Part shown: piece after piece, positions 53,315-64,000 of the stretch
Position numbering within the stretch: position 1 is the stretch's first letter
How the letters are laid out: every line of letters begins with the position of its first letter
Assembly: GCF_900156865.1 (NCBI RefSeq)
Contig: NZ_LT732529.1
Location: 1,009,056-1,073,055, forward strand
Source: Litchfieldia sinesaloumensis
GTDB taxonomy: Bacteria; Bacillota; Bacilli; Bacillales; Bacillaceae_L
Length of the DNA stretch: 64,000 nucleotides
Direction: 5' to 3'
Made by a program: the position numbers and the translations under genes
Notes under the pieces: generated by a model
Told to the model about the DNA's origin: nothing
The model's database searches: none
The model's input: the letters and a program-made list of their open reading frames with translations, nothing else

Positions 53315-54259
53315 TTGGATCAACCAATTAAAATGAAGAACAATGGACAAATAAATGTTGTTTTAAACGGTGAAAAGAAGAAGTTAAAGGTATTGCACTC
53401 AACACCAAAAGAAGAAATTACAACAAGAATCCAAACAAAACATGCAGCTCTAAAGGAAATTGAAGAAGAAATGAGCACTCTTGTTGGTATGGATGAAATG
53501 AAAAAAATGATAAAGGAAGTTTACGCTTGGATATACATTAATAAAAAACGTGAGGAACAGGGATTAAAGGCAGGAAAGCAAGCGTTGCACATGATGTTTA
53601 AAGGAAATCCCGGCACAGGAAAGACAACGGTTGCTCGACTATTAGGGAAATTATTTCTGCAAATGAATGTCCTTTCCAAGGGGCATTTAATTGAAGCCGA
53701 AAGAGCAGATTTAGTAGGAGAATACATTGGTCATACTGCACAAAAGACAAGAGATTTGATTAAAAAGGCCATTGGAGGTATCTTATTTATAGATGAGGCA
53801 TATTCACTAGCAAGAGGTGGAGAAAAGGACTTTGGTAAAGAGGCTATTGATACTCTTGTAAAACATATGGAAGATAAGCAACATGAGTTCGTGTTGATTT
53901 TAGCGGGATATTCAAAAGAAATGGAACATTTCCTTTCTTTAAACCCAGGATTATACTCTCGTTTTCCGCTTGTGATTGATTTTCCAGACTATACTGTTGA
54001 TCAGTTAATGGAAATCACAGCAAAAATGATGTCAGACCGTGAATATGTATTCAGTCCTGAAGCAGAGAGGAAATTACGTGAGCATTTACTATCTGTAAAA
54101 ATGGATTCGTATCCTGGTAAATTTAGTAATGGGCGCTATGTACGTAATATTATTGAAAAGTCAATTCGTGCACAGGCGATGAGATTACTAATTGATGATG
54201 CGTATAGTAAACAGGAACTCCAAACAATTAGAACTCAAGATCTGATTTTTAAAGAATAA
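53315..54259 (+). CDS. spoVK: Stage V sporulation protein K, AAA+ ATPase
   Basis: The 314-residue AAA+ protein of the CbbX/SpoVK family is needed for spore maturation. It has an N-terminal segment NGQINVVLNGEKKK, Walker A GNPGTGKTT, Walker B LFIDEAYSLARGG, and sensor/arginine-finger blocks in LNPGLYSRFP and FSNGRYVRNIIEKS. TTG 53315 follows AGAGGTGAGAGC. The family has a single ATPase domain, and the length is near B. subtilis SpoVK (about 320). A terminator follows. Confidence 0.95.
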   Translation: MDQPIKMKNNGQINVVLNGEKKKLKVLHSTPKEEITTRIQTKHAALKEIEEEMSTLVGMDEMKKMIKEVYAWIYINKKREEQGLKAGKQALHMMFKGNPGTGKTTVARLLGKLFLQMNVLSKGHLIEAERADLVGEYIGHTAQKTRDLIKKAIGGILFIDEAYSLARGGEKDFGKEAIDTLVKHMEDKQHEFVLILAGYSKEMEHFLSLNPGLYSRFPLVIDFPDYTVDQLMEITAKMMSDREYVFSPEAERKLREHLLSVKMDSYPGKFSNGRYVRNIIEKSIRAQAMRLLIDDAYSKQELQTIRTQDLIFKE

Positions 54260-54263
54260 CGTG

Positions 54264-54288
54264 CCGCCTATATCTAGGCGGTTCTTTC
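54264..54288 (+). terminator. Terminator-like hairpin after spoVK
   Basis: CCGCCTA and TAGGCGG arms with a TATC loop, followed by TTCTTTC. Confidence 0.8.
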
Positions 54289-54364
54289 GTGTAAATTGGT
54301 GTACTTACGCAAAATTTGTTATGATAGCAAGAGAAAAAGAACCTCATGAAAGTAGGTAAATGGA

Positions 54365-55636
54365 TTGACACACGAACAGAAAAAGGATATAGAAAAAGCT
54401 ATACTCGTAGGCTGTCAAATTCAAAATGTTGACGAAAGTCGATTTCACTATTCACTTGAAGAATTACAATCTCTTACAAAGACTGCCAATGGTCAAGTAC
54501 TTATAACCGTTACGCAGAAGCGTGAGCGAGTCCATTCAGCAACTTACATCGGCAAGGGAAAAGTGGAGGAATTGGTTAACCTTGAAGAAGAGTTAGAGCC
54601 AGATGTGATTATTTTTAATGACGAATTATCACCAAGTCAGGTAAGGAACCTTTCCTCAAAGCTTCAAGCACGGGTAATCGACAGAACCCAACTCATACTA
54701 GATATTTTTGCCTCCAGGGCAAACTCGAAAGAAGGAAAGCTACAGGTTGAATTGGCTCAACTTCAATATCTCCTTCCTCGACTCACAGGTAAAGGAATAG
54801 AACTTTCAAGACTTGGTGGAGGTATTGGTACAAGGGGGCCAGGTGAAACAAAACTGGAGACAGATAGACGACATATACATAAGCGAATCGATGATATTAA
54901 GAATCAATTATCGGTAATTGTCCAGCACCGTGAACGTTATCGTGAACGAAGAAAGAAAAATAAAACATATCAGATTGCATTAGTTGGTTATACGAATGCC
55001 GGTAAATCGACATTATTCAACCGCTTAACAGAGGCAGATTCTTTTGAGGAAAATTTATTGTTTGCAACACTTGATCCAATGACTCGAAAAATGATACTCC
55101 CTTGCGGATTGACAACTCTTTTAACCGATACAGTAGGATTTATTCAGGATTTGCCAACTTCATTAATTGCTGCATTCAGATCTACCTTGGAAGAAGTGAA
55201 GGAAGCCGATTTAATTGTACATGTGGTTGATTCGTCAAACCCAGATTATTTCAATCATGAAAAAACCGTGTTAAAACTTCTAGATGAACTTGGTGTCGAG
55301 TCTATTCCGATCCTTACACTTTATAATAAAAAAGATAAAGTTCATCCTGATTTTGTTCCTTCTTCAAAATCAAAATCAATTTTAGTTAGTGCTTTTGTAG
55401 AGAATGATCTAGTGGTAATTAAAACAAAGGTAGAGGATTCAATGATTGAAGAAATGGAAGAATATAAGGTATCGCTTCCTAGTTCAGAAGGACGAATATT
55501 GGCACATTTAAAACAAGAAACCATTTTAAAAGAACTGAGTTACAATGAAGAATCAGAAAAATATGATTGTACGGGTTATATATTTCCAAGCCATTCGTTG
55601 ACTGCTCAACTACGAGATTTTAACTCTATACATTAG
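54365..55636 (+). CDS. hflX: GTPase HflX
   Basis: HflX is a ribosome-splitting GTPase. The 423-residue protein has the N-terminal HflX domain ([24 protein letters not shown]) and a [19 protein letters not shown] linker. The G domain has G1 [10 protein letters not shown]3 [10 protein letters not shown] and G4 YNKKDK. TTG 54365 is the start consistent with the frame; the ribosome site (AAGTAGG) is weak. It corresponds to B. subtilis ynbA and lies between spoVK and ynbB as there. Confidence 0.93.
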
Positions 55637-55654
55637 AATAAATTGCATCTTTTC

Positions 55655-55695
55655 TGCCCCTTAAAACGAAGTAGGGATATCGATTACAAGGGGCA
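55655..55695 (+). terminator. Long-loop hairpin between hflX and ynbB
   Basis: TGCCCCTT and AAGGGGCA are perfect inverted repeats with a 25-base spacer, followed by TTTGATTTTA. It may be a weak terminator or a processing site. Confidence 0.45.
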
Positions 55696-55721
55696 TTTGA
55701 TTTTATAAAGGGGAATACATC

Positions 55722-57002
55722 ATGTTTACAGAATTAGATTATGGTCAACTTATATCGAAGTTAGTTGACGAAACAGAACAAAAAATTAAACAAGTACATA
55801 CGAAAATTGAAAAGACCATTGATTTTAATCAGTACCGTGTGTTAAAAAGCTTTCAAGATAACCGTGTCAGTGATTCTCATTTTATGCCTTCGACTGGTTA
55901 TGGTTATGACGATATAGGTCGCGATACATTAGAAGCAGTATACGCACACATCTTTGGCGGTGAGGCAGCTCTTGTACGCCCACAAATCATTTCAGGAACC
56001 CATGCAATATCGATTGCACTATTTGGCGTATTACGACCTAATGATGAATTACTATACATTACTGGGAATCCCTATGATACATTAGAGGAGATTGTAGGCA
56101 TTAGAGGTTCAGGAAATGGGTCATTAAAAGAGTTTCACATTGGCTATAACAAAGTTGACTTAACGTCAGATGGAAGACCCGATTTTGTCGCAATTAAGAA
56201 TGCGATCCATGAAAACACAAAAATGATTGGGATCCAACGTTCGAAAGGATATGCAACAAGGCCGTCATTTACAATTGCTGAAATCAAAGAGATGATTCAG
56301 TTTGTAAAGGAAATTAAGCCGGATGTGGTTGTATTTGTTGATAATTGCTATGGAGAATTTGTAGAACGACTAGAACCTTGTCATGTGGGTGCAGATTTAA
56401 TTGCTGGATCACTCATCAAGAATCCTGGCGGTGGACTAGCCAAAACGGGAGGATATTTAGTTGGGAAACAGGAAATGATTGAAGCATGTTCCTATCGTAT
56501 GACATCACCTGGAATTGGATCGGAAGCTGGTGCGTCACTATATACACTTCAGGAAATGTATCAAGGTCTGTTTCTTGCACCTCACATTGTTGGACAAGCG
56601 TTGAAAGGGGCTGTATTCACAGCTGCGATTCTAGAAAGAATTGGTTTAAAGACGGAGCCGAGCTGGAATTGTAAACGTACGGATTTAATTCAATCTGTAC
56701 AATTTGATAATAAGGAAATGATGGTGGCTTTTTGTCAGGCAATTCAGTTTGCCTCACCAGTCAATTCACATGTAACACCTTATCCAAGTTATATGCCTGG
56801 TTATGAGGACGACGTGATTATGGCAGCGGGTACGTTTATACAAGGAGCGAGTATCGAATTAACAGCAGATGGTCCAACGCGCCCACCATTTGTTGCATAT
56901 GTTCAAGGTGGTCTTACCTATTCACATGTCAAGATTGCGATTAGTTTAGCTATAAATCAATTATTATCAAAAGGATTAATTAGTATAGAAGCAGAGGATT
57001 AA
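55722..57002 (+). CDS. ynbB: YnbB, PLP-dependent methionine gamma-lyase-like protein
   Basis: The 426-residue fold-type I PLP protein belongs to the YnbB/aluminium-resistance subgroup. It has GYGYDDIGRDTLEAVYAHIFG near residues 60-80 and ISGTHAISIALFG. The likely PLP lysine is in SLIKNPGGGLAKTGGY. The subgroup is annotated by similarity to cystathionine/methionine gamma-lyases but its reaction is not established. ATG follows AAAGGGG. The end of the gene is part of a terminator stem before the glnRA control region. Confidence 0.9.
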   Translation: MFTELDYGQLISKLVDETEQKIKQVHTKIEKTIDFNQYRVLKSFQDNRVSDSHFMPSTGYGYDDIGRDTLEAVYAHIFGGEAALVRPQIISGTHAISIALFGVLRPNDELLYITGNPYDTLEEIVGIRGSGNGSLKEFHIGYNKVDLTSDGRPDFVAIKNAIHENTKMIGIQRSKGYATRPSFTIAEIKEMIQFVKEIKPDVVVFVDNCYGEFVERLEPCHVGADLIAGSLIKNPGGGLAKTGGYLVGKQEMIEACSYRMTSPGIGSEAGASLYTLQEMYQGLFLAPHIVGQALKGAVFTAAILERIGLKTEPSWNCKRTDLIQSVQFDNKEMMVAFCQAIQFASPVNSHVTPYPSYMPGYEDDVIMAAGTFIQGASIELTADGPTRPPFVAYVQGGLTYSHVKIAISLAINQLLSKGLISIEAED

Positions 57003-57018
57003 ATTCCTCTGCTTCTTC
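56989..57018 (+). terminator. Terminator overlapping the ynbB stop codon
   Basis: GAAGCAGAGGA and TCCTCTGCTTC form eleven perfect pairs; the 5' arm lies inside the last codons of ynbB. The T-tail is short. Confidence 0.75.
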
Positions 57019-57020
57019 AT

Positions 57021-57037
57021 GTTATGTTTTCTAACAT
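57021..57037 (+). promoter_or_regulatory. GlnR/TnrA operator, distal site
   Basis: TGTTATGTTTTCTAACA fits TGTnA-n7-TnACA perfectly. It lies just upstream of the glnRA -35. Confidence 0.88.
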
Positions 57038-57042
57038 ATTGT

Positions 57043-57071
57043 TGACAGATAATCTAACATCGGATAAAATC
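57043..57071 (+). promoter_or_regulatory. glnRA promoter with proximal GlnR operator
   Basis: TTGACA (57043-57048), 17 bases, TAAAAT (57066-57071). A second GlnR-type site, TGACAGATAATCTAACA at 57044-57060 (one mismatch), overlaps the -35 and spacer, so bound GlnR would block RNA polymerase. This two-site plan matches B. subtilis glnRA. Confidence 0.85.
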
Positions 57072-57102
57072 TAACTATTCGTTGTAAAAAGGAGGATGCC
57101 AT

Positions 57103-57504
57103 ATGGGTGACGAAATTAGACGTTCAATGCCACTCTTTCCAATTGGAATTGTCATGCAATTAACTGAATTATCTGCTAGGCAAATCCGTTATTATGAGGA
57201 AAATGGTTTGATTACTCCTGCAAGAACTGAAACAAATCGAAGACTTTATTCATTTAATGACGTTGATCGATTACTTGAAATAAAAAATTTAATCGAACAA
57301 AAGGTTAATCTAGCAGGAATAAAACAAATTTTTGCGGTTCAAAACCAAGATCCTGAGGTAGACGAAAAACCTGTTGAGCCGGTAAAACAAGAATTATCAA
57401 ATTCTGAGCTTAGAAGACTTTTAAGGAATGAGCTATTGCAAGCAGGAAGATTTAAAAAGCAATCAAGCCCACATCATAATGATATGTCTAGATTTTTTCA
57501 TTAA
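57103..57504 (+). CDS. glnR: Nitrogen regulator GlnR (MerR family)
   Basis: The 133-residue MerR-type repressor has the N-terminal winged helix [20 protein letters not shown] and a C-terminal regulatory tail (residues about 90-133). In B. subtilis that tail senses feedback-inhibited glutamine synthetase. It represses glnRA under nitrogen excess through the two sites upstream. ATG follows AAGGAGG. glnA follows 52 bases after the stop. Confidence 0.95.
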
Positions 57505-57556
57505 TAGCATTTTTGACAAAAACTATACTTACACAGAGTTTGGGGAGGAAGACTTA

Positions 57557-58891
57557 ATGTCCAAATATACGAAAGAAGATATTTTTCGTTTAGCGCAAGA
57601 AGAAAATGTAAAGTTTATTCGTTTACAATTTACTGACATTCTTGGAACAATTAAAAATGTTGAAATTCCTGTAAGTCAGTTAGAGAAAGCATTAAGTAAT
57701 AAAATGATGTTCGATGGCTCTTCAATTGAAGGATTTGTTCGTATCGAAGAATCTGACATGTACCTCTTTCCTGATTTAGACACATGGGTTATTTTCCCGT
57801 GGACTGCTGAAAAAGGGAAGGTTGCTCGTTTAATATGTGATATTCATAATGCAGATGGTACGCCTTTTGAAGGTGACCCACGTAATAATCTCAAAAGAGT
57901 TCTAAAAGAAATGGAAGAGTTAGGGTTTACGAATTTTAATCTTGGACCTGAACCAGAATTTTTCTTGTTTAAATTAGATCAACGAGGTGAACCAACTCTT
58001 GAGCTAAATGATAACGGTGGATACTTTGACTTAGCACCGACTGATCTTGGTGAAAACTGCCGCCGTGATATCGTTCTAGAACTTGAGGAGATGGGATTTG
58101 AAATTGAAGCTTCTCACCATGAAGTTGCACCTGGACAACATGAAATTGATTTTAAATACGAGGATGCACTTACAGCTTGTGATGAGATTCAAACTTTCAA
58201 GTTAGTTGTTAAAACGATTGCTCGTAAGCATGGTCTACACGCAACCTTTATGCCAAAGCCATTATTTGGGGTAGCTGGTTCAGGAATGCACTGCAACTTA
58301 TCATTGTTTAAAGGTGGAGAAAATGCATTTTTTGATCCAAAAGGGGATCTTCAATTAAGTGATACTGCAAGACAGTTTATTGCGGGGATTTTAAAGCACG
58401 CGGCTAGCTTTACAGCTGTAACGAATCCTACTGTTAACTCTTACAAACGTTTAGTACCGGGCTATGAAGCACCATGTTATGTAGCTTGGTCCGCTCAAAA
58501 CAGAAGTCCGCTTGTTCGTATTCCAGCTTCACGTGGCTTAAGTACTCGTGTAGAGGTACGTTCAGTAGACCCATCTGCAAATCCTTATATGGCAATGGCG
58601 GTATTACTAGCTGCAGGTTTAGATGGTATCAAGAATAAACTTACACCACCTGCCCCTGTTGATAGAAATATCTATATCATGAATAAAGAAGAGCGTAATG
58701 AAGCAGGTATTGTGGACTTACCACCTACATTATCACTCGCATTGGATATGCTTAAGCAGGACGAAGTGTTAATTAATGCGCTTGGCGGACACCTCTTTGA
58801 ACACTTTATCGAGGCAAAAGAGATTGAATGGGACATGTTCCGTACCCAGGTCCATCCATGGGAGAGAGAACAGTACATGACAATGTATTAA
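57557..58891 (+). CDS. glnA: Glutamine synthetase, type I-alpha
   Basis: Glutamine synthetase makes glutamine from glutamate, ammonia and ATP. The 444-residue length is that of the Gram-positive I-alpha type, which lacks the adenylylation insert. Key blocks are FDGSSIEGF, the catalytic EPEFFLF, and [21 protein letters not shown] and [13 protein letters not shown] follow. ATG 57557 has GGGGAGGAAG upstream; the frame stays open upstream to 57428, but that overlaps glnR and is not used. The feedback-inhibited enzyme also controls GlnR and TnrA in Bacillus. Confidence 0.98.
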
Positions 58892-58899
58892 TAAAGAGC

Positions 58900-58933
58900 A
58901 AACCCCTTAGCACAATGTGTTAAGGGGTTTTTT
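58900..58933 (+). terminator. Intrinsic terminator after glnA
   Basis: AAACCCCTTA and TAAGGGGTTT arms with inner CACA/TGTG pairing and a T-run. Confidence 0.95.
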
Positions 58934-58941
58934 GCGCTCCC

Positions 58942-58971
58942 AAAAAGGAACATCCCAATTAGGAATGTTCT
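58942..58971 (-). terminator. Minus-strand terminator after lexA
   Basis: On the minus strand AGAACATTCC and GGGATGTTCC pair (one G-T) around TAATT and are followed by five T, just beyond the lexA stop. Confidence 0.8.
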
Positions 58972-58979
58972 CTCTTATT

Positions 58980-59606
58980 TTAATGAATAGTGCGATATAC
59001 GCCAATGACTTTCCCTAAAATGGATACACTTTTTAGAATAATCGGTTCAAGCATAGAGTTTTCAGGTTGTAAGCGAATATGGTCTTTTTCTTTGAAGAAT
59101 CGTTTCACAGTCGCTTCATCTTCATCCGTCATTGCAACAACAATATCTCCGTTGTTTGCTGAGTGCTGTTGTCTAACAATAACATAGTCCCCATCAAGGA
59201 TACCCGCTTCAATCATACTGTCACCCATTATCTCTAGCATAAAAACTTGGTCATCATGAGCAGCAAAGCGATCAGGTAATGGAAAATATTCATCAATATT
59301 TTCGACTGCAGTTATTGGTTGACCAGCAGTGACTTTACCAATAACGGGCACGTTTATGACATTTGCAGTAGGGATAGTATCATGTTCGTCAACTTGTAAA
59401 ATTTCAATGGCACGTGGTTTTGTTGGATCTCGTCGGATTAATCCTTTGCTCTCAAGTCTAGATAAATGTCCATGCACCGTTGAACTTGATGCTAGTCCCA
59501 CAGCCTCACCAATTTCTCTTACGGAAGGTGGGTAACCCTTTGCTTTAACTTCTTGTTTAATATAATTCAATATATCTTGCTGTCTTTTTGATAGCTTTGT
59601 TGTCAT
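58980..59606 (-). CDS. lexA: SOS repressor LexA
   Basis: The 208-residue repressor has an N-terminal winged helix-turn-helix ([32 protein letters not shown]). The cleavage site is Ala94-Gly95 in KVTAGQP, and the Ser130-Lys168 dyad is in GDSM and EATVKRF. ATG at 59606 matches relatives that begin with Met-Thr; GTG at 59612 is possible. It is transcribed leftward, away from a divergent SOS-type promoter. Its own promoter has a LexA box at the -35. Confidence 0.97.
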
Positions 59607-59716
59607 CTTCACTCATCCCCTTGCGTATAACATTCTTTATATGTATCAAATTTCATTTCCATCTTGCTCGATTAAATTAAGAACTAATCCTGACAAATCC
59701 CGTAATTCTTAAAAAG

Positions 59717-59745
59717 AGTATAACATGTTTTACTAGATTATACAA
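59717..59745 (-). promoter_or_regulatory. lexA promoter
   Basis: Read on the minus strand: TTGTAT (59745-59740), 17 bases, TATACT (59722-59717). The LexA-type box at 59743-59756 overlaps its -35. Confidence 0.7.
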
Positions 59746-59756
59746 ACATAAGTTCG
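59743..59756. promoter_or_regulatory. LexA box 1 (lexA side)
   Basis: CAAACATAAGTTCG matches nine of ten defined positions of CGAACnnnnGTTCG. It overlaps the lexA -35. Confidence 0.8.
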
Positions 59757-59765
59757 AATTAGGTG

Positions 59766-59794
59766 TTGACAAAAACAGGTGTTCGCCTTATGAT
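59766..59794 (+). promoter_or_regulatory. Divergent SOS-type promoter with LexA box 2 in its spacer
   Basis: TTGACA (59766-59771), 17 bases, TATGAT (59789-59794), close to the sigma-A consensus. The spacer contains AAAACAGGTGTTCG (59772-59785), eight of ten SOS positions with an intact right half. Confidence 0.78.
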
Positions 59795-59808
59795 GAAAAT
59801 ATAAAATA

Positions 59809-59822
59809 CGAACAAACATTCT
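59809..59822. promoter_or_regulatory. LexA-like box 3
   Basis: CGAACAAACATTCT matches eight of ten SOS positions with an intact left half. It lies just downstream of the predicted start of the divergent transcript, where a bound repressor would block elongation. Confidence 0.55.
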
Positions 59823-59840
59823 GTAGGGGTGGAATTAATA

Positions 59841-59927
59841 ATGTTAAAGAAATTACAAGATGGATTTATTTATTATGTATTATTTATCTTACTAAGTATG
59901 GGAATGGTGATTATCACTGCAAGCTAA
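59841..59927 (+). CDS. 28-residue single-pass membrane peptide, candidate SOS-induced
   Basis: ATG 59841 follows AGGGGTGG by eight bases. The product begins MLKKLQDG (two lysines), then a hydrophobic span FIYYVLFILLSMGMVIIT, then only two residues before TAA. It is the first ORF of the divergent transcript whose promoter holds a LexA-like box. In B. subtilis this position carries yneA, a roughly 100-residue division inhibitor with a membrane span and LysM domain, followed by yneB; neither a LysM region nor yneB is present here. A short SOS membrane peptide resembles in form the 29-residue Caulobacter division inhibitor SidA. Function is inference; it could also be a truncated yneA relic. Confidence 0.7.
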   Translation: MLKKLQDGFIYYVLFILLSMGMVIITAS

Positions 59928-60019
59928 AGCATAGACAGCATGTAGAATGCTTGTAAAATTATCTTTCATCTAGTACTATGTAGTATGATTTAGAAAAAGA
60001 TTTTACAAGGAGTCCTAAT

Positions 60020-60250
60020 ATGCTTTCAAAAGATAAAATTCAACGGATTAATGCATTGGCAAAAAAGGCAAAATCAGTTGGTCTTACGGATAAAGAACAG
60101 ATGGAACAACAGGAACTTAGACAAGAGTATTTACGTGTCTTCCGTAGTTCGATGTCTAATACCCTACACTCAGTAACCGTTGTTGACCCTAAGGGTAATG
60201 ATGTAACGCCTGAAAAGTTAAAAGAAAGTAAACGGAAAAGATTACATTAA
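60020..60250 (+). CDS. ynzC: YnzC, DUF896 protein
   Basis: The 76-residue DUF896 protein contains KIQRINALAKKAKSVGLT and EQMEQQELRQEYLRVFR, a helical hairpin typical of YnzC. The C terminus is lysine/arginine-rich. It has ACAAGGAG upstream. In B. subtilis it is the last gene of the SOS operon yneA-yneB-ynzC. Here it follows the 28-residue ORF by 92 bases with no strong terminator between, so it may share SOS control. Function unknown. Confidence 0.92.
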   Translation: MLSKDKIQRINALAKKAKSVGLTDKEQMEQQELRQEYLRVFRSSMSNTLHSVTVVDPKGNDVTPEKLKESKRKRLH

Positions 60251-60252
60251 CA

Positions 60253-60288
60253 AAGAATACATAGACTTCTATGTATTCTTTTCTTTTT
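60253..60288 (+). terminator. Intrinsic terminator after ynzC
   Basis: AAGAATACATAG and CTATGTATTCTT arms with a short loop and T-rich tail. Confidence 0.92.
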
Positions 60289-60364
60289 GTGCATACTACA
60301 TTAGAACCCACTGTTTTTATCAAGTTGTAGATCATTAGAATTTTTTGAAAGGGATGAAAAATAA

Positions 60365-62368
60365 ATGGCACATTCTATAACTGACTTATCAATCGCATCG
60401 ATTCGTACACTCTCTATTGATGCAGTAGAAAAAGCAAATTCAGGACATCCGGGGATGCCTATGGGTGCTGCTCCAATGACATATGCCCTCTGGACTCGTC
60501 ACATGAGACACAATCCGAGTAATCCAAATTGGTTTAATCGTGACCGTTTTGTTTTATCAGCAGGTCATGGATCTGCATTATTGTACAGTATGCTTCATCT
60601 ATCTGGCTACGACCTTACAATTGATGACTTAAAACAATTTCGTCAATGGGGTAGTAAGACACCTGGACATCCAGAATATGGACATACAGCAGGTGTTGAT
60701 GCGACTACTGGTCCACTTGGCCAAGGAATTGCTATGGCTGTAGGAATGGCAATGGCAGAACGTCATTTAGCAGGTGTGTACAATAAAGGCTCGGTAGAAA
60801 TCGTTGACCATTATACATACGCGATATGTGGAGATGGTGACCTGATGGAAGGTGTATCTGCTGAAGCGTCATCTATGGCAGGTCATTTAAGATTAGGTCG
60901 TCTAATCGTTTTATATGATTCAAACGATATCTCCCTAGATGGTGACCTTGATCAAGCTTTCTCAGAATCAGTAGAGCAACGGTATAAAGCATATGGCTGG
61001 CAGTACATCCGTGTTGAGGATGGGAATGATGTTGACGCAATTGATAAGGCTTTAGAAGAAGCAAAAGGTGATCTTAATCGCCCAACTTTAATTGAGGTTC
61101 GAACGACTATTGGATATGGATCTCCAAATCGTGCCGGAAAATCAAAGGCGCACGGTGAACCATTAGGTGCAGATGAATTAAAACTAACAAAAGAAGCGTA
61201 TAACTGGACATTTGAAAATGATTTTCATGTCCCAAATGAAGTTTATGCCCATTTTGAGGAGTCAGTGAAAAAATCTGGGGAACAAAATGAACAAGAATGG
61301 AATCAAATGTTCTCTAGTTATAAAGAAAATAATCCTGAGCTTGGAAAACAGCTAGAATTGGCGATTAATGGAGATCTACCTGAAGGTTGGGAAAAGACTT
61401 TACCTGTTTATGAAGTGGGTAAAAAGCTTGCGACTCGTGCCTCTTCTGGTGAGTCTTTAAATGCTATTGCACAAAGCGTGCCACAATTCTTTGGTGGATC
61501 TGCTGATTTAGCGGGTTCAAATAAAACAATGATAAATAATGCTGCTGATTTCATGCCCAATGATTATAGCGGACGAAATATATGGTTTGGGGTACGTGAG
61601 TTCGCAATGGGTGCTGCCTTGAATGGAATGGCGCTCCATGGTGGTCTTAAGGTATTTGGAGGAACATTCTTTGTCTTCTCTGATTATTTACGCCCAGCAA
61701 TACGATTAGCTGCATTAATGAAAGTACCTGTCACATATGTGTTTACGCATGATAGCATTGCGGTTGGTGAGGACGGACCAACTCATGAGCCAGTCGAACA
61801 ATTGCCTGCATTACGTGCAATGCCAAATCTATCTGTTATCCGCCCAGCAGATGGAAATGAAACAGCTGCCGCTTGGAGAACCGCACTTGAGTCTAAAGAG
61901 GTTCCTACAGCACTAATTTTAACCCGACAGAATTTACCTACTTTAGAAGGAACCGCTGAAAAAGCATATGAAGGTGTACAAAAGGGTGCTTATGTTGTAT
62001 CACCTGCACCATCTGGACAGCCTGCTGCTCTTCTATTAGCAACTGGTTCTGAAGTAAGTCTTGCTGTAGAAGCACAGAAACAACTTGCAAGTGAAAATAT
62101 TGAGGTTTCCGTTATAAGTATGCCTTCTTGGGATCGCTTTGAGGCTCAGTCGCAAGAATATAAAGAGTCTGTCATTCCTAAGAATGTAAAAAAACGATTA
62201 GCAATTGAAATGGCGACTCCCCTTGGCTGGGAGAGATATACAGGCGATGAGGGAGATATCCTTGGTATCCATAATTTCGGAGCTTCTGCACCTGGTGAAA
62301 TTGTAATGAAGGAATATGGTTTCTCCGTTGAAAATGTCGTCAATCGTGTAAAAAAATTGCTCAAGTAA
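60365..62368 (+). CDS. tkt: Transketolase
   Basis: Transketolase is the thiamine diphosphate enzyme of the pentose phosphate pathway. The 667-residue protein has [12 protein letters not shown] at the N terminus, the TPP motif in [15 protein letters not shown], and SHDS-type block [43 protein letters not shown] carries the catalytic glutamate. ATG 60365 follows AAAGGGATG. Downstream is a strong terminator. Position after ynzC is as in B. subtilis. Confidence 0.97.
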
Positions 62369-62373
62369 GTAAT

Positions 62374-62402
62374 AAAAGGGGGTCGACTCGGACCCCTTTT
62401 CT
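62374..62402 (+). terminator. Intrinsic terminator after tkt
   Basis: AAAAGGGGGTC and GACCCCTTTT arms around GACTCG. Confidence 0.92.
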
Positions 62403-62416
62403 ACATAAGAAACAGT

Positions 62417-62423
62417 TTCGACA
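62417..62423 (+). promoter_or_regulatory. Spo0A box upstream of sirA
   Basis: TTCGACA is the complement of the Spo0A box TGTCGAA. A looser TTTCAGACA copy lies about 40 bases downstream. sirA is a direct Spo0A target in B. subtilis. Confidence 0.7.
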
Positions 62424-62514
62424 AAACTAGACCATTCTTACTCCAGTTTCAGACAAAATGCACAGACTCTTTCAAATATACTATTTTTAAAAGGTAGTAT
62501 TAGGAGGAAAGAGT

Positions 62515-62955
62515 ATGAGAGAATATCACATATATTTAATAGAAGAAGAATTTGCAACTCATTACTTTGGTCGAGAATCACTAATCTATCACCTGTTCTT
62601 GGAACATAACCAATGCGAAACCCATAGAAAAGATGTCCTACATAAACAAATCGAATTTATCACTAGAGCGATTCCTACGTTACAAATTCAAAAGAAAATC
62701 GAAACTGGTCTTTCTCATTATTCAGTTTATAAAAGACAAAGTCATATTCACATTATCGAATGGAATGAATTTAATAGCTATGCAAAACTAACAATACATA
62801 ATGATTACATTCACCTCCAATCAACAGGGAGTTATGAAGCCGAAACCGCTTTTTTTGAAATCCTGCGAAAATATGATCGATGTTTTTTAGCTATGGATTT
62901 TATCGCGAATAAATATGGATGGCTCAACCCCATCAAGGAAAGAAAGTTTGTATAA
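62515..62955 (+). CDS. sirA: Sporulation inhibitor of replication SirA
   Basis: SirA (YneE) binds DnaA and stops new rounds of replication at sporulation onset. The 146-residue protein shows YLIEEEFATHYFGRES at the N terminus, SGSYEAETAFFEILRK in the middle (here TGSYEAET) and CFLAMDFIANKYGWLNPIKER at the C terminus; these blocks are typical of the family. ATG follows AGGAGGAAAG. A Spo0A box lies about 95 bases upstream. It follows tkt as in B. subtilis. Confidence 0.93.
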   Translation: MREYHIYLIEEEFATHYFGRESLIYHLFLEHNQCETHRKDVLHKQIEFITRAIPTLQIQKKIETGLSHYSVYKRQSHIHIIEWNEFNSYAKLTIHNDYIHLQSTGSYEAETAFFEILRKYDRCFLAMDFIANKYGWLNPIKERKFV

Positions 62956-63043
62956 AAGGCTAGGAAAACACTAAACAAATATTGTATAATTGCTAATGGT
63001 TTAGTACACTGTAGTGAGACAACATGAAGGAGGAAGTTTTTGT

Positions 63044-63268
63044 ATGGAATTATGGTTAGCTATCTTACTAATCGTGGTAGCTTTACTTGGTGGCGTTGCA
63101 TTAGGCTTTTTTATTGCACGTAAATATATGATGAGCTACTTGAAGAAAAATCCACCAATTAATGAGCAAATGCTAAAAGTAATGATGATGCAAATGGGTC
63201 AAAAGCCATCACAGAAGAAGATCAATCAAATGCTAAAAGCAATGAATGGTCAAATGGACAAGCAATAA
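63044..63268 (+). CDS. yneF: YneF, UPF0154 membrane protein
   Basis: The 74-residue protein has an N-terminal membrane span (residues about 3-25, [21 protein letters not shown]). A basic, glutamine- and methionine-rich cytoplasmic part includes [29 protein letters not shown], cited here only as [10 protein letters not shown] and [15 protein letters not shown] 63044 follows AAGGAGGAAG; an in-frame start at 63014 would precede that site. Function unknown. Conserved next to sirA. Confidence 0.92.
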
Positions 63269-63300
63269 TAGCGGACAAGCATGAAGTCCTACAATCATAG

Positions 63301-63347
63301 AAAGCCACTTTTTTAGTGAGAAATCACTTGAAAAAGTGGCTTTTTTA
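63301..63347 (+). terminator. Terminator between yneF and the minus-strand VOC gene
   Basis: AAAGCCACTTTTT and AAAAAGTGGCTTT arms with inner AGTGA/TCACT pairing and T-run; it could serve both converging genes. Confidence 0.9.
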
Positions 63348-63376
63348 TTGCTAAAAAAATTTAAAAAACAACTTTG

Positions 63377-63766
63377 TTATAAATCCCTTTGATCAATATT
63401 TAATTCAATTAAATTCCCATCAGGATCGGCACAAAAGATTTGCGCAAAACCGCTGACACTATCTGGCTTTTCGAGAACGGTCACATTGTTTATTGACAAC
63501 CAATTTAACGTGTCATAGTAGTTTTCAACTCGTAGAGCGAAATGGCCCTCTCGGCTGTTAATTTTTTTGTTTTTACGGATTGTCTGAGAATCCGGTAGGA
63601 CAATTAAGTGAAGTTGTTGATTTCCAACTTCATACCAAGCACCAGGGAAATCGAAATTTGGACGGTTAATCTCTTTTAGACACAGTATATTGCTGTAAAA
63701 ATCCTTTGCCTTTTCAAGATTTGTTACTGTTAGACTCACATGATGAAGCTCTTTATAATTAATCAT
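63377..63766 (-). CDS. VOC superfamily (glyoxalase/bleomycin-resistance-type) protein
   Basis: The 129-residue protein has two beta-alpha-beta-beta-beta modules. Likely metal ligands are His in ELHHVSLTV, His in QQLHLIVLP and Glu in DPDGNLIELN, the usual pattern of VOC metalloenzymes. A further GHFALRV block begins the second module. Substrate cannot be told; lactoylglutathione lyase-like or thiol-transferase roles are both possible. Its ATG has GAGGTGA upstream on the minus strand. It converges with yneF. Confidence 0.88.
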   Translation of the reverse strand: MINYKELHHVSLTVTNLEKAKDFYSNILCLKEINRPNFDFPGAWYEVGNQQLHLIVLPDSQTIRKNKKINSREGHFALRVENYYDTLNWLSINNVTVLEKPDSVSGFAQIFCADPDGNLIELNIDQRDL

Positions 63767-63933
63767 TCTCAGGTCACCTCAATTTATCATCTATTGAACA
63801 TTATAGTAGAACTTAAAAAGAAATAGAATGATTTGTAGTTATTTTAACCTGTAACCTTTGTTTTATCTTTCTAGAAATATAAAAATTTGGTAAACTATTA
63901 TGGCACTTATTTCGTCTTTTGGAGGACTTCAGG

Positions 63934-64000
63934 ATGAAAATCTTTAAAGATTTAATGTGGTTTTTTATACAGGAGAAGAAATCATATCTAACTGGTATTA
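63934..64000 (+). CDS. ABC transporter, N-terminal fragment (continues beyond window)
   Basis: ATG 63934 follows GGAGGACTTCAGG. The 22 visible codons read MKIFKDLMWFF then IQEKKSYLTGI, resembling the N terminus of fused permease-ATPase exporters of the B. subtilis YheI type. Only the first residues are present, so the call rests on recall of that N terminus. Confidence 0.5.
   Translation, partial: MKIFKDLMWFFIQEKKSYLTGI

Follow-up and report, generated by a model that had tools for sequence, protein, structure and literature searches.

A 28-residue membrane peptide beside lexA in Litchfieldia sinesaloumensis, most likely a YneA reduced to its anchor

Introduction

What becomes of an SOS division inhibitor when only its membrane anchor is left? 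The question is raised by the region divergent from lexA in Litchfieldia sinesaloumensis, which was analysed within a stretch of 64,000 nucleotides, referred to here as the window. In Bacillus subtilis, this position is occupied by YneA, and a 2026 study of that protein assigns the targeting of FtsW to the membrane span and the blocking to the LysM domain (PMC13396833). According to the same study, the span by itself is enough to reach FtsW and the septum, it docks on FtsW TM7, and K5, E6, F10, V11, and F14 are critical residues of YneA; YneA without LysM and the C-terminal tail reaches the septum and is described there as blocking neither growth nor division (PMC13396833). SosA is reported to be inactive after removal of 30 or 40 C-terminal residues (PMC6851548). 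Anchor-only peptides, such as the one encoded in the window, keep the FtsW-targeting part, without the part said to block. A sequence-only reading of the locus had offered two options, a minimal SOS checkpoint peptide and a yneA reduced to its anchor.

Organization of the lexA locus

The peptide gene is located between lexA and ynzC, in the following arrangement:

58980 to 59612, minus strand: lexA, the divergent neighbour, 210 aa counted from an upstream GTG; probable ATG at 59606
59743 to 59756, no strand: LexA-type box 1, CAAACATAAGTTCG, 9 of 10 fixed positions, identical in nine of nine congeners (own genome included)
59766 to 59794, plus strand: sigma-A-type promoter TTGACA-17-TATGAT, 11 of 12 consensus bases in the promoter scan
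59772 to 59785, no strand: LexA-type box 2, within the promoter spacer, 8 of 10 fixed positions
59809 to 59822, no strand: LexA-type box 3, CGAACAAACATTCT, just 5' of the ribosome site, 8 of 10 fixed positions, identical in nine of nine congeners
59825 to 59833, plus strand: Shine-Dalgarno-like sequence AGGGGTGGA, from direct reading
59841 to 59927 including the stop, plus strand: 28-codon anchor-only peptide, read as YneA-derived from its reading, conservation, and span alignment
59951 to 59979, plus strand: possible separate ynzC promoter TTGTAA-17-TACTAT, from direct reading of the genus alignment
60020 to 60250, plus strand: ynzC (DUF896), the downstream neighbour, Pfam PF05979 at 3.2e-31
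60252 to 60281, plus strand: terminator-like hairpin 3' of ynzC, from a scan

The lexA product matches the Pfam families Peptidase_S24 (2.9e-38) and LexA_DNA_bind (1.3e-27). The near-consensus promoter, the ribosome site, and the short open reading frame (ORF) are present as the sequence-only reading had described them. Read directly, TTGACA (59766–59771) and TATGAT (59789–59794) are separated by a 17 bp spacer, and the ORF begins with the ATG at 59841, comprises 28 codons (MLKKLQDGFIYYVLFILLSMGMVIITAS), and ends with the stop codon at 59925–59927. The ynzC gene starts 92 bp past this stop, which confirms that the LysM tail is missing. The putative ynzC promoter is identical in eight of the nine congeners, the ninth having TTGTAT/TACGAT, and is absent from the promoter-scan list. 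On the basis of this conserved sequence, ynzC may have its own, SOS-independent promoter.

Two LexA-like boxes had been noted previously, one in the promoter spacer and one downstream of it. Both are there, and the list was incomplete, as a better third box lies at 59743–59756. A single LexA-type box means little, because the window contains 20 matches with at most two mismatches against 13.2 expected, a number reached by 5 of 100 shuffles. Genome-wide, the search at up to one mismatch gave 32 matches against 83 in the reversed control, so that there is no excess and the regulon is not delimited by scanning with the consensus alone. The cluster itself is not due to chance, because three boxes lie within 80 bp in the alignment of all nine congeneric genomes, and at least two are present in 113 of the 114 lexA slots with a called gene across the order.

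Conservation and origin of the peptide

The 28-codon ORF is a real, conserved gene under purifying selection. The genus sample consisted of nine Fredinandcohnia-like genomes, including the one studied here, each with a match in the ynzC search; close matches in named records of that search are Bacillus sp. HNG, Bacillus timonensis AF060A6, Fredinandcohnia onubensis (MAG), and Bacillus sp. REN16. An intact ORF of exactly 28 codons is found between lexA and ynzC in all nine genomes, which encode eight different peptides with 17 invariant residues. The pooled pN/pS of the ORF is 0.159, near the 0.141 of ynzC (36 pairs from nine genomes), and single pairs compared with a neutral simulation gave p values of 0.0004 to 0.0105 (four of the eight pairs that include the window). 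The ORF is free of gaps, and the stretch that follows it has gaps in 41 of 123 columns, about 30 of which come from one longer genome. The comparison with relatives that the sequence-only reading had proposed as a check thus speaks for a gene. A profile of the eight different genus peptides (A1), searched against 397 genomes of the order, had strong matches only in the nine genus genomes (67–74 bits), and the next best match, outside the genus, reached 23 bits and contains a stop. Therefore, as far as seen, the family to which the window peptide belongs does not extend beyond the genus.

Although it lacks both a model match and a LysM domain, the encoded peptide is most likely a descendant of YneA. 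LysM-bearing YneA exceeds the model cut-off in all eight sister genomes, which belong to genera g2–g4 of the same family (f1). The spans were compared using the first 35 residues of YneA, with shuffles that kept the N-terminus, span, and tail apart. Six genus peptides aligned to the eight family YneAs with a mean of 43.2, against 23.1 ± 2.8 after shuffling, and none of 600 shuffles was as high. Taken singly, the window peptide gave p ≤ 0.006 for seven of the eight YneAs and p 0.41 for the eighth (G013); the core common to the peptide and the family spans is IYYVLF/YYILF. The genus peptides compared with eight LysM-YneAs of other families gave a joint p of 0.07, which is not significant. Three features favour the reduction of yneA to its anchor, as the sequence-only reading had phrased its second option: the position, the promoter, and the resemblance of the span to YneA spans within the family, the last of which does not extend to other families. 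Its other option, a peptide that would work as an SOS checkpoint, is plausible.

The YneA-model cut-off is passed by 26 of 40 genomes, 23 of them among the matches listed; in the other three, the passing matches are each weaker than about 33 bits, so that they pass only when summed within one frame. In G001, the cut-off is reached by summed matches in a 1793-residue frame. No full LysM-YneA was present in the genus genomes among the matches listed. An intact yneA elsewhere in the genome, which was to count against the peptide, was not found: the best match to the YneA model lies in a 329-aa frame and scores 38.5 bits, below the cut-off of 60, and no YneA-sized frame was seen among 37 LysM matches, the smallest open frame being 173 aa. 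The window peptide matched no NCBIfam family, NF010723 (YneA) and NF041581 (SosA) included, at E ≤ 1. None of the peptides tested reached a Pfam or NCBIfam cut-off, and the weak sub-threshold matches include one of the Halobacillus peptide to SosA (E 0.7). The yneB gene is missing, as had been noted, with no match at E ≤ 1e-10 in any of the nine genus genomes. It is also without a match in three of the four g2 genomes, and the operon may therefore have shrunk stepwise.

Anchor-only peptides across the order

The lexA gene was placed in 130 genomes of the order, and the divergent region was taken for all of them. The class of each slot was given by the first ORF with a ribosome site and a hydrophobic span, with automatic choice of the start; 68 of the surveyed proteins themselves served to build the LysM profile, and the anchor-only class was limited to at most 40 aa. 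So defined, the slots contain a LysM-type protein in 82 genomes, a LysM-less tailed protein in 14, an anchor-only peptide in 18, and no called gene in 16. The anchor-only peptides have 27–34 aa and fill the slot in eight families (f1, f2, f7, f14, f32, f35, f36, and f42), a range that the sequence-only reading had understated. At least two boxes are present in all 18 anchor-only and all 14 tailed slots, in 81 of the 82 LysM-type slots, and in 5 of the 16 without a called gene, and SOS-type control is thus retained where the span is retained. The distance from the last box to the start codon is about 30 nt, with medians of 32.5 for anchor-only and 31 for LysM-type genes. Four of the five gene-less slots with boxes belong to f11 genomes, in which the next gene after the boxes is yneB-like; the fifth is that of G133, a genome 83% complete, and may hold a degraded gene.

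The LysM-less tailed proteins have an overall length of 57–93 aa and a SosA-like layout, and occur in families f3, f6, f21, f34, and f35 (loci L134, L135, L140, L148, L168, L169, and others). Two of them were scanned: the f21 protein matches the YneA model below the cut-off (E 1.5e-4), and the f6 protein matches nothing above the cut-off. The slots without a called span gene belong to families f11, f17, and f22 and to some genomes of f2, f8, and f9. In lineages with an empty slot, the checkpoint may be missing or encoded at another locus.

A second class of anchor-only peptides is described by profile A2, built from 14 peptides of families f2, f7, f14, f32, and f36 with the pattern M[FL]..[LI]SK.D..Y..LF..SL.F.Y. 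At E ≤ 1e-4, the profile has matches in 48 of the 397 genomes of the order, which represent 17 of 135 genera and come only from those five families; the lexA slot was examined for 24 of the 48 (14 from the 130-genome survey and 10 more). The peptides of Halobacillus dabanensis (31 aa), Oceanobacillus jordanicus (30 aa), and Virgibacillus halotolerans (30 aa, counted from an internal start) are each followed by a yneB-like gene. The second-class span resembles the LysM-bearing or tailed spans of f28, f3, f18, f6, f8, f15, f20, and others, and 13 of 39 family tests gave p ≤ 0.01 (200 shuffles, 7 of the 14 peptides). The pN/pS, calculated from two to four sequences each, is 0.11 in f2, 0.12 in f7, 0.42 in f14, and 0.40 in f36. 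Comparison of the genus peptides with five second-class peptides gave a joint p of 0.09.

In a LexA tree of 55 rows, most deep forks of which are open, the 13 second-class rows group together with support (100/99) and are separated from the six genus rows. The genus rows are not one clade, with G004 standing apart. Forcing all 19 anchor-only rows into one clade gave a p-AU of 0.054, short of rejection. LysM was apparently lost more than once, and the case for two losses is also made by the LysM-bearing YneA of the g2–g4 sister genomes; we do not claim a common anchor-only ancestor for the two classes, which may nonetheless have had one.

Four extra A2 copies (E 2e-9 to 5e-6) were found, two in G353 (L263 and L264), one in G317 (L266), and one in G162 (L267). 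Five of the seven neighbouring proteins tested match phage families, namely transcriptional regulators (3.8e-38 and 2.1e-38), a replication terminator (6.5e-47), a DNA primase (8.9e-56), and a protein best matched to a family of unknown function (5.2e-57) and also to an SbcC-like family (2.2e-31); the other two match none. Because the copies adjoin phage-type genes, we infer that prophages or like elements carry the peptide, and the copies are possibly a phage-borne division-inhibitor-like peptide. The four 2.1-kb stretches around them contain no LexA-type box cluster before the copies: two are devoid of boxes, the third contains one box, some 610 bp upstream of the copy, and in the fourth the copy is flanked by boxes at distances of about 850 bp (upstream) and 900 bp (downstream). 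A tblastn search of phage collections with three peptides gave no match, and two DNA patterns matched five IMG/VR contigs, none with such a peptide. Six peptides had weak matches only in PHROGs, the best being that of a phage-context copy to phrog_12200, of unknown function (E 1e-4). The slot DNA of the window had no match among plasmids.

FtsW of genomes with anchor-only peptides

The alignment with one Bacillus genome, which is not significant (z 0.58), sets a register in which the critical YneA residues would correspond to Q6, D7, Y11, Y12, and F15 of the window peptide; Q6, Y11, Y12, and F15 are invariant in the genus. FtsW P206 is retained in all five genus genomes compared. V204 is a leucine in these genomes, and is likewise not kept in most of the LysM-YneA genomes compared. 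In one genome, which presumably belongs to the B. subtilis group, the published FtsW positions T153, V204, P206, and N211 fit, and F166 and L196 do not. Another SEDS protein aligned as FtsW, presumably SpoVE, was rejected, as positions 204 and 206 did not fit.

The FtsW of five second-class genomes (L304, L305, L306, L311, and L315, compared with L307) lacks seven alignment columns after TM7. The gap adjoins the YneA-resistance positions V204 and P206, and P206 is kept in three of the five. It is possible that the gap represents an adaptation or plain kinship, the latter because the five genomes are close kin. The loss of a YneA-clearing protease was also considered and rejected. The model NF041438, which we associate with DdcP, matched in all 60 genomes, 58 of them over the cut-off and anchor-only ones among these, and there is thus no correlated loss.

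Discussion

We propose that LysM, as well as yneB, was lost before the genus diverged, and that what survives of yneA is a membrane peptide of 28 residues with a single span, still placed behind the former yneA promoter with its LexA control. DNA damage would lead to LexA cleavage and synthesis of the peptide, which would be inserted with its lysines inside. FtsW would be the docking site of the helix, just as its TM7 is for the YneA span, and septal peptidoglycan synthesis would be slowed without any part outside the membrane, as by the 29-residue SidA in Caulobacter. That the presumably YneA-derived peptide is an SOS-induced FtsW inhibitor acting via its helix alone is a proposal for which we see the balance as even. 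Inhibition by the helix alone is the most likely reading, because anchor-only peptides are kept under selection behind SOS-type promoters. It is favoured by anchor-only forms in another clade and the low pN/pS in two of the four families. The values of 0.40–0.42 in the two other anchor-only families, and the inactivity of LysM-less B. subtilis YneA and tail-truncated SosA, speak against it. A broader version is tentative and somewhat doubtful: at least two lineages would have independently cut YneA to a helix of 27–34 residues that arrests division via FtsW in the membrane, LysM would be dispensable once the helix or FtsW adapts, and host prophages would carry copies of the helix.

Selection on the span alone also fits a peptide that binds FtsW without arrest and is kept for a subtler effect, as a mild brake, a damage-time marker, or a divisome competitor. 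B. subtilis YneA without LysM is an example of such behaviour, since it localises to the septum without inhibition (PMC13396833). We consider this explanation, the main rival, rather unlikely, as the span and SOS control are kept in the whole genus and in a separate clade, and a binder without effect would hardly be expected to be retained.

TisB, like DinQ, acts by membrane depolarisation, and a peptide of that kind would have an SOS-induced action unrelated to division. The similar size, the single span, and the LexA control agree with such a function, which is described for DinQ (PMC3567139). It is nevertheless very unlikely here, given that the window span resembles that of YneA, occupies the YneA slot, and has no charged residue inside, and that positions 54000–64000 contain no Rfam match at gathering scores. 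The region 59550–60380 has seven promoter-like sites, against 4.7 ± 2.0 in shuffles, and the five on the minus strand correspond to about chance frequency; an antisense RNA may or may not be made there. The ORF could also be what is left of a yneA in decay, or a leader whose translation has a role only in lexA or ynzC expression; the 16 slots without a called span gene imply that the gene can be lost, and yneB has already disappeared from most g2 genomes. The ratio of pN/pS near that of ynzC, the lack of indels in nine genomes, the possible own promoter of ynzC, and the extra boxes, which are mostly absent where the span gene is absent, make a relic or leader improbable to a high degree.

The LysM domain is gone, and the span, SOS-type promoter, and purifying selection remain, in contrast with the view that the span targets and LysM blocks. 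Either the helix alone inhibits a SEDS glycan polymerase in Gram-positives, or the binding of FtsW at the time of SOS is useful without arrest, and both alternatives would be new. The conflict with the published YneA and SosA truncations is testable, because anchor-only versions exist under selection. Peptides of about 30 residues are often skipped by gene finders. Since the anchor-only peptides are of this size and lie below model cut-offs, Halobacillus, Oceanobacillus, Virgibacillus, and Fredinandcohnia may give the impression of having no SOS division checkpoint. Used as ligands of FtsW, peptides of this length (about 30 residues) would make compact tools. In titles and abstract beginnings of the open-licence literature, we found nothing on anchor-only YneA, and nothing that joins yneA with Oceanobacillus, a lexA division inhibitor with Halobacillus, or the SOS response with Fredinandcohnia.

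Among the known systems, YneA of B. subtilis (NF010723) shares with the window peptide the slot divergent from lexA and before ynzC, the LexA boxes, and the N-terminal span, the similarity of which is significant for YneAs of the same family and not for those of others; the peptide differs in the absence of LysM and yneB and in its length of 28 against about 105 residues. TisB and DinQ of Escherichia coli are likewise short SOS-controlled membrane peptides, but they are toxins of type I systems, in which an antisense RNA is the antitoxin. SosA of Staphylococcus aureus (77 aa, NF041581) is a Gram-positive SOS division inhibitor without LysM, and differs in that it requires its extracellular tail (PMC6851548), whereas the window peptide is tail-less and has no match to the model at E ≤ 1. 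SidA of Caulobacter (29 aa) is described as an SOS-induced inner-membrane peptide that inhibits division via FtsW (PMC4211646), and its predicted binding site is on the side of FtsW TM7 that YneA does not bind (PMC13396833). SidA is alphaproteobacterial, and the comparison is one of description, not of sequence; the two are alike as single-span micropeptides of the same size, with an SOS-type promoter and no outside domain.
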